Source of the DNA: a virus
Strand: one strand, 5' to 3'
IMG/VR virus record: IMGVR_UViG_3300025655_000241
Location: 1-26,540 of that record
DNA: 26,540 nt
Positions 1,697-7,754 of the stretch are shown piece after piece. The position numbers were made by a program, and so were the translations under genes. The notes below the pieces were generated by a model. The model saw nothing but the letters and a program-made list of their open reading frames with translations. It was not told where the DNA came from and searched no databases. Each line of letters opens with the position of its first letter. Within the stretch, counting starts at the first letter, position 1.

Positions 1697-1725
1697 TTGC
1701 AACACATCGCGCCGTGGTTTAGGGT
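1697..1725 (+). promoter_or_regulatory. candidate promoter (TTGCAA-N17-TAGGGT)
   Basis: A -35-like TTGCAA (1697-1702) and a -10-like TAGGGT (1720-1725) are separated by 17 bp in the 59-bp gap before the gene at 1751. The match to sigma-70 consensus is modest. Support comes from the same layout (TTGCAC, 17 bp, TAATAT) at 7298-7326. The reverse complement of the left part reads GTGTTGCAA, part of a motif seen in other gaps of this arm. Confidence 0.35.
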
Positions 1726-3380: not shown

Positions 3381-3391
3381 TACATCGATTG

Positions 3392-3416
3392 ACGGGGCGA
3401 GCAATCGCCCCGTTTG
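3392..3416 (+). terminator. hairpin, weak intrinsic terminator candidate
   Basis: A perfect 9-bp stem (ACGGGGCGA / TCGCCCCGT, 3392-3400 and 3405-3413) is closed by a GCAA tetraloop, a stable GNRA type. Only three T residues follow the stem core, so termination would be partial. It lies just after the DUF669 stop and before the HD gene, and could tune expression between them or protect mRNA ends. Confidence 0.5.
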
Positions 3417-3437
3417 CTGGATGTATTGGAGGATAAA

Positions 3438-3905: not shown

Positions 3906-4849
3906 TGGATCTTGAGCAATTTAACAGCCCGCCCACTGTGCAAGCAATTTTCGAGTGGTATCAGGCCCAGCGAAAAGACAACCACCGCCCGCATTTGGGT
4001 GGGAGCCAGATCGGGAATGAGTGCAGCCGCGCGCTTTGGTATCAATTCCGGCACATGGATCGAGGGTATTTTGATGGCCGAGTGCTGCGCTTGTTTCAGA
4101 CGGGCGATCGCGAAGAGGATCGCATTTTGGCGAACCTGCGCGCGGTGGGGGTGACGGTCTGGGACCGCGACCCGGACACGGGTAAGCAGATCAGGTTTAC
4201 AGCTCACGACGGACACTTCGCGTTGTCACTGGATGGCGTGGCCGAGGGCTTGAAGGAAAGCAGCCAGCCGCACACGCTTGAGTTCAAAACGATGAACGAC
4301 AAGAATTTCCGGGCGATGGAAAACAAAGGCTGCGAGGAAACCAAGCCCGTATATTTCGCGCAATGCCAGATCGGTATGCACCTGGCGGGTCTGGACCGAT
4401 GCGCGTTTATCGCGGTGAACAAAAACACCGACGCGATTTACATGGAGCGCATCAAATACGATCCGGCGATTGCGCTGAAATTGGTGGCGAAAGCGGGTGA
4501 GATCATTTTCGCGGATAAGCCACCGGCAAAGCTAAACACAGACCCGGCGTTTTATCTGTGCAAGTTTTGCGACTACAGCGCCGTTTGTCATCTCGGCAAG
4601 TTACCAGAAGTTAATTGCCGAACATGCGCTCATGCCTCGCCAGAGCGGGGCGGGGATGGTCTTTGGTCCTGTTCCAATGGGCAGGCGTTTGGGACCGCCT
4701 GCGAAAAGCACCTTTTCAACCCATACGCTATGCCGTGGGATGTGCATGACGCATCACCGGACTGGGTGGAATATGTGACCGAGGACGGCGAGATCATCAG
4801 AAACGAAGGCAACAGCGAAAAGCTTGCATCTGAGTGGGTGCCGTTCTAG
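3905..4849 (+). CDS. Cas4/RecB-like PD-(D/E)XK exonuclease with predicted [4Fe-4S] site
   Basis: The product is 314 aa. The N-terminal G-G-S-Q-I-G-N-E-C-S-R-A-L-W-Y segment (C40), a nuclease core with D110 (L-S-L-D-G) and E126-x-K128 (T-L-E-F-K-T), and a C-terminal C219-x2-C222-x5-C228 together reproduce the Cas4/AddB pattern. In that pattern one early cysteine and three late ones bind a [4Fe-4S] cluster around the PD-(D/E)XK fold. A second cysteine set follows (C238, C241, C256, C266), which looks like a zinc knuckle and is not part of the Cas4 core. It probably resects DNA ends to ssDNA for the ATPase/DUF669 pair. No CRISPR array or cas1/cas2 lies nearby, so a CRISPR role is unlikely. A GTG at 3902 is an alternative start. 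Confidence 0.85.
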   Translation: MDLEQFNSPPTVQAIFEWYQAQRKDNHRPHLGGSQIGNECSRALWYQFRHMDRGYFDGRVLRLFQTGDREEDRILANLRAVGVTVWDRDPDTGKQIRFTAHDGHFALSLDGVAEGLKESSQPHTLEFKTMNDKNFRAMENKGCEETKPVYFAQCQIGMHLAGLDRCAFIAVNKNTDAIYMERIKYDPAIALKLVAKAGEIIFADKPPAKLNTDPAFYLCKFCDYSAVCHLGKLPEVNCRTCAHASPERGGDGLWSCSNGQAFGTACEKHLFNPYAMPWDVHDASPDWVEYVTEDGEIIRNEGNSEKLASEWVPF

Positions 4850-4858
4850 TGTTGCACT

Positions 4859-4918
4859 GCGCGGGCTAGGCTGATCCCCGAATCCCGGCCCTCCCCCGGT
4901 TGCCCGCGCGCTTTTTTT
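4859..4918 (+). terminator. intrinsic terminator before the helicase gene
   Basis: A perfect 8-bp GC stem (GCGCGGGC, 4859-4866; GCCCGCGC, 4902-4909) is followed by GC and seven T residues (4912-4918). The loop is long (35 nt) but C-rich with a possible inner pairing of CCGG blocks. It lies 10 nt after the nuclease stop and 26 nt before the helicase ATG. It probably ends or attenuates the upstream transcript. Confidence 0.7.
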
Positions 4919-4943
4919 GGGAGAACGTCACGGAGGACGCGCT

Positions 4944-6629
4944 ATGAAATTGACACTCAGGCCATACCAAGAGGACGCCATAAACGGGCTGTACGATTAC
5001 TGGTCGGACGGGCGTGGCAATGATCCGTTGATTGTAGCGCCGACAGGCGCGGGGAAAAGCCTGATCCTGGCGAAGCTGGTAGAGGATGCTTTGGGCTTTA
5101 CCGGGACGCGGATATTGATGTTGACGCATGTCAAAGAATTGATCGAGCAGAACGCCCAGGAATTGGTTGGCATTCTGCCGAATGTGGACCTTGGATTTTA
5201 TAGCGCCAGCTTGGGCCAGAAGCGCCTTGATCGGCAAGTGACTTTTGCGGGCATTCAATCAATCTGGGAGCGCGCGCCGGATATGATCCCGCCGCCTGAT
5301 CTTGTCATCATTGACGAGGCGCATCTTGTTCCCAAAAACACAACTACGCGCTACGGCAAGTTTCTAAACGATCTGCGGGTTTGTAATCCAGAGGTAAAAA
5401 TTGTCGGGCTGACGGCCACGCCATACCGCCTTGACAGCGGATATTTGCACAAAGGCAAAGGCGCGATATTTGACGGCATCGCATATGACATTCCGGTTGG
5501 GATGCTGATGGACGAAGGCTATCTTGCCCCTCTGGTATCAAAGGGAGCCAAGGCGCAGATTGATTTGACGAACGTCGGCAAGCGAGGCGGTGAGTTTATC
5601 GAAAGCCAACTGGCGCTGGCCGCGTCTAATCCTGAATTGGTGCAAGCGACGGTTGAGGAAATCGTGCGTTTTGGAGAGGATCGAAAAAGCTGGCTGATCT
5701 TTGCCAGCGGCGTCAACCATGCCAAAATGATCGAAGCCGAAATGCACACGCACGAGATCGATGCGGAGGTGATAACAGGTGCAGACAATAAAACAGATCG
5801 CGCTTGCAAGATTGCTGATTTCAAGGCTGGCAGATTGCGCTGCCTTATTAACATCGGTGTTTTGACAACTGGGTTTAATCACCCAGCAACGGATCTGGTG
5901 GCGCTGGTGCGGGCAACAGCATCGGCTGGGCTTTACGTCCAGATGGCGGGGCGTGGGACGCGCAACGCACCGGGCAAAACGGATTGCCTTTTGCTTGATT
6001 TTGGCGGCAATGTCGCGCGGCATGGTTTCATCGATGCGGTGCAAGTGCGGGATAAAACCCAGAGCAGCGGCGATGGTGACGCGCCTGTAAAGGAATGCCC
6101 AGAATGCCAGTCGCTTGTTCATGCGGCTTTGCGGTTTTGCTCGTGCGGTCACAAGTTTCCTGATCCGGAATTTAATCACGCGGATCTTGCTTATGGTGGA
6201 GCGGTGTTGTCGTCTCAGGTTGTGGCCGAGTGGGTTGATGTGGATTACGTCAATTATTATCGACACAAAAAGGATGGCAAGCCGGATAGCGTCAAGGTCA
6301 CTTATGGGATTGGCATGAATACAATATCAGAATGGCTTTGCCCGGATCACGGCGGATATGCGGCCAGTCGCTACCGCGCGCGCATGGCTGCTCTTGGGGC
6401 AACGGCACTGACGACTGACGACGCGATTGATGAGGCAGAGATTGCTTGGACAATTCCGGATCGAATCAAGATCAAGCCGCGCGCTGACAATCCAAAATTT
6501 GATGAAATCATCCAGCTTGATTACAGCGAAGGGCGCAAGCCAGAAAAACGGGGCGAAGATCTGGGATGGGGCAGTGATGACGGCAATGGCGTAAGTGTGC
6601 GCGAATTGTTGGAGGAAATTCCGTTTTGA
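4944..6629 (+). CDS. DEAD/DEAH-box superfamily 2 helicase
   Basis: The product is 561 aa. SF2 motifs occur in order: Q-like L-R-P-Y-Q (5-9), Walker A A-P-T-G-A-G-K-S (32-39), D-E-A-H (124-127), motif III T-A-T-P (about 157), motif V with L-T-T-G-F-N-H-P, and motif VI Q-M-A-G-R-G-T-R (about 333-340). A C-P-E-C ... C-S-C-G zinc-ribbon-like module follows (about 384-405), and then a C-terminal domain of roughly 140 residues of unknown function. The ATG at 4944 has GGAGG at 4932-4936. An earlier in-frame TTG at 4917 lies in the terminator and is unlikely. The protein probably unwinds or remodels DNA during replication or recombination. It overlaps the VRR-NUC gene by 4 bp if that gene starts at TTG 6626. 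Confidence 0.9.
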   Translation: MKLTLRPYQEDAINGLYDYWSDGRGNDPLIVAPTGAGKSLILAKLVEDALGFTGTRILMLTHVKELIEQNAQELVGILPNVDLGFYSASLGQKRLDRQVTFAGIQSIWERAPDMIPPPDLVIIDEAHLVPKNTTTRYGKFLNDLRVCNPEVKIVGLTATPYRLDSGYLHKGKGAIFDGIAYDIPVGMLMDEGYLAPLVSKGAKAQIDLTNVGKRGGEFIESQLALAASNPELVQATVEEIVRFGEDRKSWLIFASGVNHAKMIEAEMHTHEIDAEVITGADNKTDRACKIADFKAGRLRCLINIGVLTTGFNHPATDLVALVRATASAGLYVQMAGRGTRNAPGKTDCLLLDFGGNVARHGFIDAVQVRDKTQSSGDGDAPVKECPECQSLVHAALRFCSCGHKFPDPEFNHADLAYGGAVLSSQVVAEWVDVDYVNYYRHKKDGKPDSVKVTYGIGMNTISEWLCPDHGGYAASRYRARMAALGATALTTDDAIDEAEIAWTIPDRIKIKPRADNPKFDEIIQLDYSEGRKPEKRGEDLGWGSDDGNGVSVRELLEEIPF

Positions 6630-6979
6630 GCATGCCGACCGAAAGCGCCGAGCAGATCGGATTTTTGAACTGGTGGCGGATGCAGTTTGGCAGCGTCAGG
6701 ATATTCCACATCCCGAACGGCGGGCACCGCGCGATCAGCGTGGCTAAGAAGATGAAAAATGAGGGTGTTTGCGCTGGCGTTCCTGATCTTTACGTTCCGC
6801 AGTGGCGGCTGTGGATCGAAATGAAGCGCCAGAAGGGCGGGCGCTTATCGCCAGATCAAAAGGACTGGATTGAATATCTTGAGGGCGTTGGCGACACCGT
6901 GATTGTCGGGAAAGGTGCCGCCGATGCTAGTCGGCAAGTTCTGGAATTTGTGCGAGAACGGCGCGGATCACGTACTTAG
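6626..6979 (+). CDS. VRR-NUC domain nuclease
   Basis: The product is 117 aa, the usual length for stand-alone phage VRR-NUC proteins. The nuclease core shows an early Glu (E9), H-I-P-N-G-G (28-33), G-V-P-D54-L, then E65-M-K67 and S-P-D-Q, which is the PD...ExK arrangement of this Holliday-junction-resolvase-like fold. Family members cleave structured DNA such as flaps and four-way junctions. I used TTG 6626 as the start because GGAGGA (6611-6616) sits 9 nt upstream and TTG overlaps the helicase stop. ATG 6632 is the alternative but lies 15 nt from that site. The last 53 bp overlap an antisense gene. Confidence 0.85.
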   Translation: MSMPTESAEQIGFLNWWRMQFGSVRIFHIPNGGHRAISVAKKMKNEGVCAGVPDLYVPQWRLWIEMKRQKGGRLSPDQKDWIEYLEGVGDTVIVGKGAADASRQVLEFVRERRGSRT

Positions 6980-7070
6980 TTATTGACAGCCCGGCATCTT
7001 GAGCAGCTTGCGCGATTGCCTGCTGTTCTGCCTCTGTCACTCGGCAGTGGATGACTTTTTCTTTTTTCAT
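6927..7070 (-). CDS. small ribbon-helix-helix (Arc/CopG-like) DNA-binding protein
   Basis: This 47-aa gene lies on the strand opposite its neighbours. It has an ATG at 7070, an AAAGGGGC ribosome binding site about 6 nt upstream (minus sense), and a TAG at 6927. The product begins with a basic strand (KKEKVIHCRVT), then helix A (EAEQQAIAQAAQDAG), a turn, and helix B (S-I-T-K-Y-V-I-R-A-V-L-A-Q). This is the classic ribbon-helix-helix pattern seen in Arc/CopG repressors, antitoxins and MobC-type proteins. Such proteins dimerise and place the beta-ribbon in the major groove of palindromic sites. A perfect 14-bp palindrome sits 17 bp upstream of its start, which suggests autoregulation. Its 3' end overlaps the VRR-NUC gene. 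No toxin is obvious beside it. Confidence 0.72.
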   Translation of the reverse strand: MKKEKVIHCRVTEAEQQAIAQAAQDAGLSITKYVIRAVLAQIPELAD

Positions 7071-7087
7071 GGCATCGCCCCTTTGTG

Positions 7088-7101
7088 GTGTTGCGCAACA
7101 C
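7088..7101. promoter_or_regulatory. perfect 14-bp palindrome, candidate operator
   Basis: GTGTTGCGCAACAC is its own reverse complement. It lies in the 42-bp gap between the divergent starts at 7070 (minus) and 7113 (plus). Position and symmetry fit an operator for a dimeric regulator such as the adjacent ribbon-helix-helix protein. The half-site GTGTTGC recurs at 1700-1706 (inverted), 4849-4855 and 7295-7301. Confidence 0.5.
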
Positions 7102-7112
7102 TATGGCGAAAA

Positions 7113-7292
7113 ATGGCAGAGATCAAGACAGGCTTTGTGGTATTCGCCACGCAAGATACACCATCTGGCATTGCAGATGCGCGCGAGTGGCTGGCAAAAA
7201 AGGCGATGAAACCGGATCATGTGCGCTTGTATCGGATGGATGGTCAGGTTTTGGTTGAGACGCTCAAGCCTGTTTTGATCCCGTCGCAATAA
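7113..7292 (+). CDS. small hypothetical protein (59 aa)
   Basis: I do not recognise this product. It is small and soluble, with beta-like ends (KTGFVVFATQD and GQVLVETLKPVL) around a helical middle (ADAREWLAKKA). The ATG at 7113 has only a weak GGCGA-like site upstream. The in-frame extension back to 6999 runs through the antisense ribbon-helix-helix gene and reads as an unlikely Cys/Phe-rich sequence, so I reject it. The gene starts 12 bp after the palindrome, so its transcription may be controlled from there. The stop at 7292 is followed at once by another GTGTTGCAC motif. Confidence 0.55.
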   Translation: MAEIKTGFVVFATQDTPSGIADAREWLAKKAMKPDHVRLYRMDGQVLVETLKPVLIPSQ

Positions 7293-7297
7293 ATGTG

Positions 7298-7326
7298 TTG
7301 CACATTGCGATTGATGCGGGTAATAT
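7298..7326 (+). promoter_or_regulatory. candidate promoter (TTGCAC-N17-TAATAT)
   Basis: TTGCAC (7298-7303) and TAATAT (7321-7326) are spaced by 17 bp, upstream of the gene at 7360. The -10 element matches four of six sigma-70 consensus positions, and the -35 matches three. The -35 hexamer lies within GTGTTGCAC, the recurrent motif of this arm, so a regulator binding that motif could block or assist polymerase. The same layout occurs at 1697-1725. Confidence 0.4.
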
Positions 7327-7359
7327 CATCCCAAGCAAACACGCAAGGGAGAGACGACA

Positions 7360-7656
7360 ATGAACATCCAGAACCCGCTCGTTACCAGCCCCGCCAGCCG
7401 CGTCCTTGACGCGATGCCAAGGGCGAACGCCACAACAGCCGCCTTTCGCTACCTCAAGACGCGCCATGTTGAATTGGCCGAAATCCTCGACGCGCTACAC
7501 AGCTTTACCGTTTCGCAATGCTCGGACCCGGCAGACGAAGACAGCGTGGGCGGCGCTGATACGATCCTCGAAGCCGCCAGCGATTTTCATGCGAGATGCG
7601 TTAATTATCACACGCTCGATGCCCGCCGCGCCCGTCATCAGGAAGCGAGCGAATGA
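7360..7656 (+). CDS. hypothetical protein (98 aa)
   Basis: The function is unknown. The ATG follows CAAGGGAGAGACGACA, almost the same leader as the methyltransferase gene, so the start is well supported. The product looks soluble and mostly helical, with a central segment (RYLKTRHVELAEILDALHSF) and an acidic loop (D-P-A-D-E-D). There are two cysteines and no metal motif or membrane segment. A candidate promoter lies just upstream, so this may be the first gene of a short operon of very small genes. The stop overlaps the next start (ATGA at 7653-7656). Confidence 0.7.
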   Translation: MNIQNPLVTSPASRVLDAMPRANATTAAFRYLKTRHVELAEILDALHSFTVSQCSDPADEDSVGGADTILEAASDFHARCVNYHTLDARRARHQEASE

Positions 7657-7754
7657 CCGCCCACCGCGTCCTCGCTTGGGCATTTATCGTTGCCGCAACG
7701 GCTGCAATCGGGCTTAGCCTGTCCAGCGCATTCACCATGATCGGGGGTGTGTGA
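7653..7754 (+). CDS. tiny single-span membrane protein (33 aa)
   Basis: The gene starts at an ATGA overlap with the previous stop and ends in a second ATGA-type overlap (7752-7756). The product is almost entirely one hydrophobic segment (VLAWAFIVAATAAIGLSLSS) after a short T-A-H-R start. No function can be assigned. Coupling at both ends and the matching pattern of the next gene support it being real, but its size limits confidence. Confidence 0.5.
   Translation: MTAHRVLAWAFIVAATAAIGLSLSSAFTMIGGV

Follow-up and report, generated by a model that had tools for sequence, protein, structure and literature searches.

Small ribbon-helix-helix (RHH) repressors occur in temperate phage P22, where Arc serves the temperate immunity region, and RHH dimers often bind repeats one helical turn apart. 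Other RHH proteins act with partners: NikA with a relaxase, and TacA and KacA with an acetyltransferase toxin. A regulator of several early promoters is described for p576, a conjugative plasmid of the pLS20 family. In the sections of the source drawn on here, its RHH protein Regp576 represses four early (establishment) promoters, its own among them, through operators that directly precede the −35 element and/or closely follow the start site (PMC8708921). The relevant excerpt of PMC5569661 presents SvtR and AvtR of the archaeal viruses SIRV1 and AFV6 as RHH proteins that repress their own genes and have multiple sites in the genome, AvtR being described as a tandem RHH protein. The Aca repressors of phage anti-CRISPR genes are helix-turn-helix proteins, according to the same sections of PMC8708921, and early regulatory sequences of archaeal viruses are the subject of a Nature Communications article that, as excerpted, used such a motif to find early anti-defense genes (PMC11065993).

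The locus studied here lies in a window of 26,540 bases that comprises an entire virus record. Genes of the left arm point rightward and encode a helicase plus methylase, a Sak4-like annealing protein, an SSB-like DUF669 protein, a Cas4-like exonuclease, a DEAD helicase, a VRR-NUC nuclease, and a run of small genes; the right part reads leftward, with tail, capsid, and head genes. Opposite in orientation to the surrounding left-arm genes is a gene for 47 amino acids (aa) at positions 6927 to 7070 (minus strand, ATG start, TAG stop included). We consider it likely that this gene encodes an RHH autorepressor of a tailed, probably virulent phage, which would also curtail other early promoters through the motif GTGTTGC(A); in this model the binding, its repressive direction, the promoters, the start points, and the timing role are predictions. 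The proposed mode of action resembles that of Regp576: the same operator-like motif accompanies an RHH gene at its own promoter (25/25 contigs) and in the zone of another early promoter (18/25), with binding here predicted. Regp576 belongs to a conjugative plasmid, whereas the window is a phage, and TTATCCCnnTTATCCC, its dual operator of direct heptamers, bears no relation to GTGTTGCA; the conserved element here is GTGTTGC(A) and not a dual TTATCCC heptamer. SvtR and AvtR share with the window protein that they are virus-encoded RHH proteins, but in the excerpted account they differ in having archaeal promoters, other operators, and unrelated hosts (PMC5569661). The GTGTTGC operator motif matches none of those described for Regp576, for SvtR and AvtR, or as archaeal early motifs in the parts of these sources drawn on (PMC8708921, PMC5569661, and PMC11065993). 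Within the CC-licensed PMC literature, represented by such excerpts, we recognized no paper describing this RHH protein or motif, which is weak evidence of absence.

An earlier note, made from the letters alone, had proposed a minus-strand gene with a ribosome binding site over the 3′ end of the VRR-NUC gene, and an Arc/CopG-type product; both proposals are borne out. The minus strand ahead of the start codon reads AAAGGGG-N7-ATG, a fair Shine-Dalgarno sequence (7078 to 7084), the open reading frame (ORF) is also called by a simple codon-usage gene caller, and it overlaps the VRR-NUC gene (6626 to 6979, plus strand; Pfam PF08774, 1e-7) by 53 nt. Frame disruption in relatives was looked for and none was found: codons 2 to 29, outside the overlap, contain no stops and have a pN/pS of 0.31 (12 relatives), and TAG ends the gene in all 12 relatives compared. 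By these measures the ORF is a real coding gene under purifying selection. Two Pfam models score above their curated cutoffs and place the product in the RHH (MetJ/Arc/CopG) superfamily, namely, NikA-like PF21983 (7.7e-11; 42.4 bits, cutoff 27) and TacA1 PF08681 (3.4e-5; 24.1 bits, cutoff 21). The AlphaFold2 model (mean pLDDT of 82, from 13 aligned sequences) has helices at residues 13 to 26 and 30 to 41 and, as a monomer, no assigned strand; the strand would pair only in a dimer. The best Foldseek matches in the PDB are RHH proteins (NikA, KacA-DNA, AtaR-DNA, TacA, Arc, and CopG) at probabilities of 0.9 to 1.0, with E values of only 0.04 to 0.4 for this query of 47 residues. Residues K5, I7, H8, C9, R10, and T12 are invariant in 15 RHH sequences and lie in or around the presumed DNA-reading strand. 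The product is very probably a DNA-binding repressor, a putative role read from profile and fold.

Nearest in sequence profile and fold are the RHH domains of NikA and TacA/KacA (PF21983 and PF08681; 2ba3 and 5zgn), but neither a relaxase nor a toxin partner was found beside the 47-aa gene. The full-length NikA/MobC family models score below their cutoffs (NCBIfam MobA, 29.6 of 80 bits; MbpA, 28.2 of 90), and the protein ends six residues past helix 2, without the toxin-binding tail of TacA/KacA (DUF1778) antitoxins; the neighboring genes at 7113 and 7360 have no match in Pfam, NCBIfam, or PADLOC. P22 Arc and plasmid CopG (1par and 2cpg) are comparable as minimal RHH repressors of about 45 to 50 aa and match in fold; a sequence-profile search of the PDB returned no match to either. 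The likeness to Aca proteins is that of an autorepressor limiting transient early expression, whereas the window protein is RHH, not helix-turn-helix, by profile and fold, and no known anti-CRISPR gene was seen.

The 53-nt convergent overlap, which is kept in the main group of relatives, suggests another function that the earlier note had raised, in which transcription running from the RHH gene across the 3′ end of the VRR-NUC gene would down-regulate the nuclease. Dual coding by itself would account for the low pS in the overlap (0.30 versus 0.66). In two divergent contigs, L102 and L103, the RHH gene lies opposite the helicase and VRR-NUC genes in the same orientation, with further sequence between; the overlap is missing there, yet the motif and the divergent arrangement persist. 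Antisense action on the nuclease is possible in the window's virus, but as a shared or general role it is not supported, and we regard it as a very improbable explanation of the gene.

With VRR-NUC as bait we obtained 80 virus loci, in 20 of which the RHH gene lies antisense at the VRR-NUC 3′ end. An RHH profile search added L092, L093, L102, and L103, for 25 contigs with the gene (RHH+), including the window and L082, which is 99.9% the same virus. From the VRR-NUC stop to the next small gene (7113 to 7292 in the window, plus strand, 59 aa), the distance is 95 to 146 nt in all 22 RHH+ contigs in which it could be placed, the window and L082 among them. In L007, L013, and L016, which have no RHH gene, VRR-NUC and the small gene overlap directly by 25 nt (3/3). 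Judged by these layouts, the RHH gene behaves as a clean presence/absence cassette. The set of 59 contigs without it (RHH−) leaves out L005, which is cut inside VRR-NUC and is 99% identical to the window, as well as shorter duplicates of RHH+ contigs. Among its members are L072 and L026, the latter a contig ending at VRR-NUC, so that its RHH status lies beyond the contig. Fifty of the 59 RHH− loci were surveyed over their entire records, which contain no RHH gene of this family apart from a distant copy in L072 (3053 to 3181; 36% identity over 33 residues). That copy is on the same strand directly behind VRR-NUC, has its own AT-rich leader, and falls outside the GTGTTGC set. The replication proteins of L102 and L103 are roughly 30 to 45% identical to those of the window group (helicase, 32%; Sak4, 40%; VRR-NUC, 30%), their RHH proteins are 57% and 47% identical to that of the window, respectively (55 to 70% over BLAST segments), and the half-site motif is still common to both.

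The gap between the RHH start and the ATG at 7113 measures 42 nt and contains, as the earlier note had reported, a perfect 14-bp palindrome, GTGTTGCGCAACAC (7088 to 7101), made of two half-sites. Perfect 14-bp palindromes, of which about 1.6 would be expected in 26.5 kb, are represented in the window by this one alone, and one arises in 59 of 20,000 shuffles of the gap; at up to three mismatches, the string is not overrepresented in the window (3 matches, 2.1 expected). As a conserved operator, the perfect palindrome was ruled out, being kept in only 6 of the 25 RHH+ contigs (the window, L082, L095, L099, L100, and L101). Relatives conserve the right half-site (AGTGTTGC, 7095 to 7102, minus-strand reading) and not the left one, and the conserved unit is the half-site GTGTTGC. 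It stands 15 to 36 nt ahead of the RHH start codon in 25/25 RHH+ contigs, in the form GTGTGGC in L092, L102, and L103. All 12 main-group rows of the upstream alignment have GTGTTGC preceded by TA (TAG-TGTTGC), and L088, outside that alignment, carries TGGTGTTGC. In L095 and L099 to L101, a second TGTGTTGC follows as a direct repeat 11 bp off, that is, one helical turn. A large inverted pair, TGTGTTGC-N8-GCAACACA, occupies a noncoding gap of L091 (6880 to 6903) and is possibly a stronger putative operator.

Read on the RHH strand, a −10-like TATAGT or CATAGT runs into GTTGC, with TTGA(T/A) 15 to 17 nt upstream; in L102 and L103, TATTGT runs into GTGGC. The promoter proposed for the RHH gene of the window (P_L) has CATAGT as its −10 element (7100 to 7105, minus strand), overlapped by the half-site, and TTGATC as its −35 element (7121 to 7126, minus strand), across a 15-nt spacer and within the 5′ end of the divergent small gene. 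Of the 18 listed P_L sites, 16 have a −35-like element (4 or 5 of 6 positions) 15 to 17 nt from the −10 element, the exceptions being extra upstream copies in L095 and L099. A consensus promoter scan recovered neither P_L nor the promoter P_R proposed below, and overall returned 7 sites versus 5.4 expected. Since the P_L site covers the last bases of the −10 element and the start point, bound repressor would block RNA polymerase, and the gene would be autorepressed.

The motif recurs elsewhere in the early arm. Noncoding DNA makes up 8.0% of the window, though all four copies of WGTGTTGC (1698, 4848, 7094, and 7294) lie in it, in intergenic gaps of the rightward arm. The operator-like site TGTGTTGCA at 7294 to 7302 (plus strand) runs into TTGCAC (7298 to 7303), which with TAATAT (7321 to 7326) and an N17 spacer forms the proposed P_R; downstream is a 98-aa gene (7360 to 7656, plus strand), the first of the next small-gene run. 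AGTGTTGCA, at 4848 to 4856 (plus strand), is located at a stop codon ahead of the helicase operon, and TGTGTTGCA occurs again at 1698 to 1706 (minus strand) ahead of the recombination operon, with TTGCAA-N17-TAGGGT (1697 to 1725) on the other strand. The sister record L082 adds a fifth place, GTGTTGCAACAC ahead of the helicase gene, about 0.9 kb to the left of the window start. No half-site is present in the gap from 3381 to 3437 or in four window gaps longer than 30 nt between 7657 and 8644.

Among 15 RHH+ representatives, 28 of 36 WGTGTTGC matches are noncoding (1.78 per kb of noncoding versus 0.057 per kb of coding DNA), compared with 8 of 32 in the 59 RHH− contigs (0.14 versus 0.062 per kb). 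These counts depend on home-made gene calls that miss some genes (a match at position 754 of L084, counted as noncoding, lies in a VRR-NUC-like coding stretch), and a cruder gene caller places no more than 16 of 58 RHH+ matches, versus 2 of 32 RHH− matches, in noncoding DNA. When noncoding 8-mers of the 15 representatives are ranked without bias, with 110 nt of flank on each side of the RHH start excluded, GTGTTGCA comes first (18 copies in 12 of the 15 contigs, fewer than 1 expected), and GCAACAC is second among 7-mers, behind a simple repeat. After dereplication, and with the RHH promoter excluded, noncoding GTGTTGCA has 15 copies in 9/12 RHH+ contigs versus 0/19 RHH− contigs (P = 1.1e-5; P values here overstate independence, because the contigs are related and served both to define the motif and to count it). 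Within 3 kb of the anchor, it occurs in 6/12 versus 0/19 contigs (7 versus 0 occurrences), and 300 permuted 8-mers reach at most 4. The looser GTGTKGC is present in RHH− contigs (5 matches, in 5 of 19 dereplicated), and L007 has one noncoding 7-mer GTGTTGC; CRP-902, a cultured relative with helicase and VRR-NUC and no antisense gene annotated behind VRR-NUC, has no GTGTTGC in 8.3 kb. The earlier note had envisaged a repressor of itself and of the small-gene run, or of the whole arm. Given half-sites at four early-arm gaps and the association with the RHH gene across relatives, self-regulation and control of the small-gene run are supported, and the whole arm is reduced to probably most of the early arm.

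Alternatively, the protein could be a purely local autorepressor, the other GTGTTGCA copies serving some other regulator, of phage or host, or acting as promoter elements with TTGCA as the −35 element. At P_R and at 1697 the motif does coincide with a −35-like TTGCA(A/C), with a −10-like hexamer 16 to 18 nt on in several phages, and RHH binding at these other sites is predicted from sequence. The −10 match downstream of non-P_L sites averages 2.81 of 6, versus 2.19 in shifted controls, a modest gain. However, the same motif is downstream of the −10 element at P_L, at the −35 element of P_R in most phages, and in L094, L096, and L097 reversed at P_R beside a different −35-like sequence. Because it shifts place and orientation relative to promoter elements yet stays at promoters, an operator is the best reading, and for the reversed copy in the L096/L097 clade an operator is a better fit than a promoter element. 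In addition, GTGTTGCA is absent from the noncoding DNA of 19 dereplicated RHH− relatives, an absence for which a host factor would not account. We consider a purely local role unlikely. Another phage regulator, encoded beyond the contig fragments, could bind the half-site; on the best reading, the protein that accompanies the operator-like motif in these contigs is the RHH protein, which makes it the candidate binder.

The distribution of sites also bears on whether the protein serves in segregation, in a relaxosome, or at an origin instead of regulating transcription, the position of its repeats in gaps being fortuitous. Its best family is NikA-like, the MobA and MbpA models match below cutoff, and the repeats could be iteron-like. 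The sites, however, tend to be solitary and scattered and to mark operon starts, the RHH gene's own promoter always has one, and a Pfam scan of 19 window proteins detected no relaxase; such a function seems to us highly unlikely. Under the autorepressor model that we prefer, RHH dimers would recognize GTGTTGC(A) half-sites, either alone or in pairs that are inverted or directly repeated at 11-bp spacing. At 1698, 4848, 7294, and the L082 place, where the sites overlap or abut promoter-like sequences, they would compete with polymerase, and as the protein accumulates, early transcription would be curtailed.

A repressor with several operators, encoded opposite to the early genes, could also be the lysogeny repressor of a temperate phage, with Arc/Mnt- or CI-like immunity, and temperate P22 has small RHH repressors. 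Against this, a tyrosine integrase (PF00589) was detected in 0 of 14 RHH+ records, all of them fragments (control searches were positive in 14/14), and no RHH relative was found in cellular genome contigs (one genome each of 84,980 species) at the threshold used. Lysogeny is less likely because these 14 fragmentary records have no tyrosine integrase and the cellular genomes searched no relative. We consider it improbable, and lytic timing is weakly favored by these comparisons.

RHH relatives are likewise missing from the plasmid collection (E of 0.01) and from 50,697 deposited phage records (E of 1), in which the window region from 6300 to 7700 also has no DNA-level relatives; no carrier of the gene turned up among those records. 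Comparison of L007, L013, and L016 with the window indicates that regulator and sites are gained or lost together. We tentatively suggest, as a possibility that falls somewhat short of an even chance, that a mobile cassette of RHH gene and operator-promoter has spread among different uncultured virulent tailed phages, each acquiring matching operators at its early operons. It would then amount to an RHH-based counterpart of plasmid Regp576 that times early genes, possibly anti-host ones. If the autorepressor model is true, this would be a very small phage regulator whose operator set can be read directly from the genome, a small switch that times early genes in an uncultured bacterial virus, with a half-site at most early operon boundaries. 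The operator could then serve to catalogue the early, promoter-proximal genes of related phages.

Among viral contigs, a search for the promoter-like pattern TTGAT-N15-18-ATAGTGTTGCA was rejected as too loose: it returned at least 120 stretches, and the RHH protein was present in 1 of the 117 loci numbered L104 and above (L135, the contig of L022). A stricter promoter pattern modeled on L092 and L102 had no match in viral contigs. In L103 (8235 to 10471), the helicase and methylase genes are 70 to 85% identical to those of several RHH+ phages and the other shared genes are far more diverged, which points to some recent gene exchange between the groups. A GC-rich inverted repeat followed by seven T (4858 to 4917), located after the 4848 site and ahead of the helicase gene, looks terminator-like by eye; as a terminator ahead of the helicase (4852 to 4926), it folds no better than shuffles (z of 0.29) and was set aside. 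The 59-aa protein encoded at 7113 to 7292 had no convincing match in the PDB (all E values >0.1). It is conserved at 37 to 64% identity in 10 relatives, has a confident beta-alpha-beta model (pLDDT of 87.9), and its gene adjoins VRR-NUC with or without the RHH cassette.
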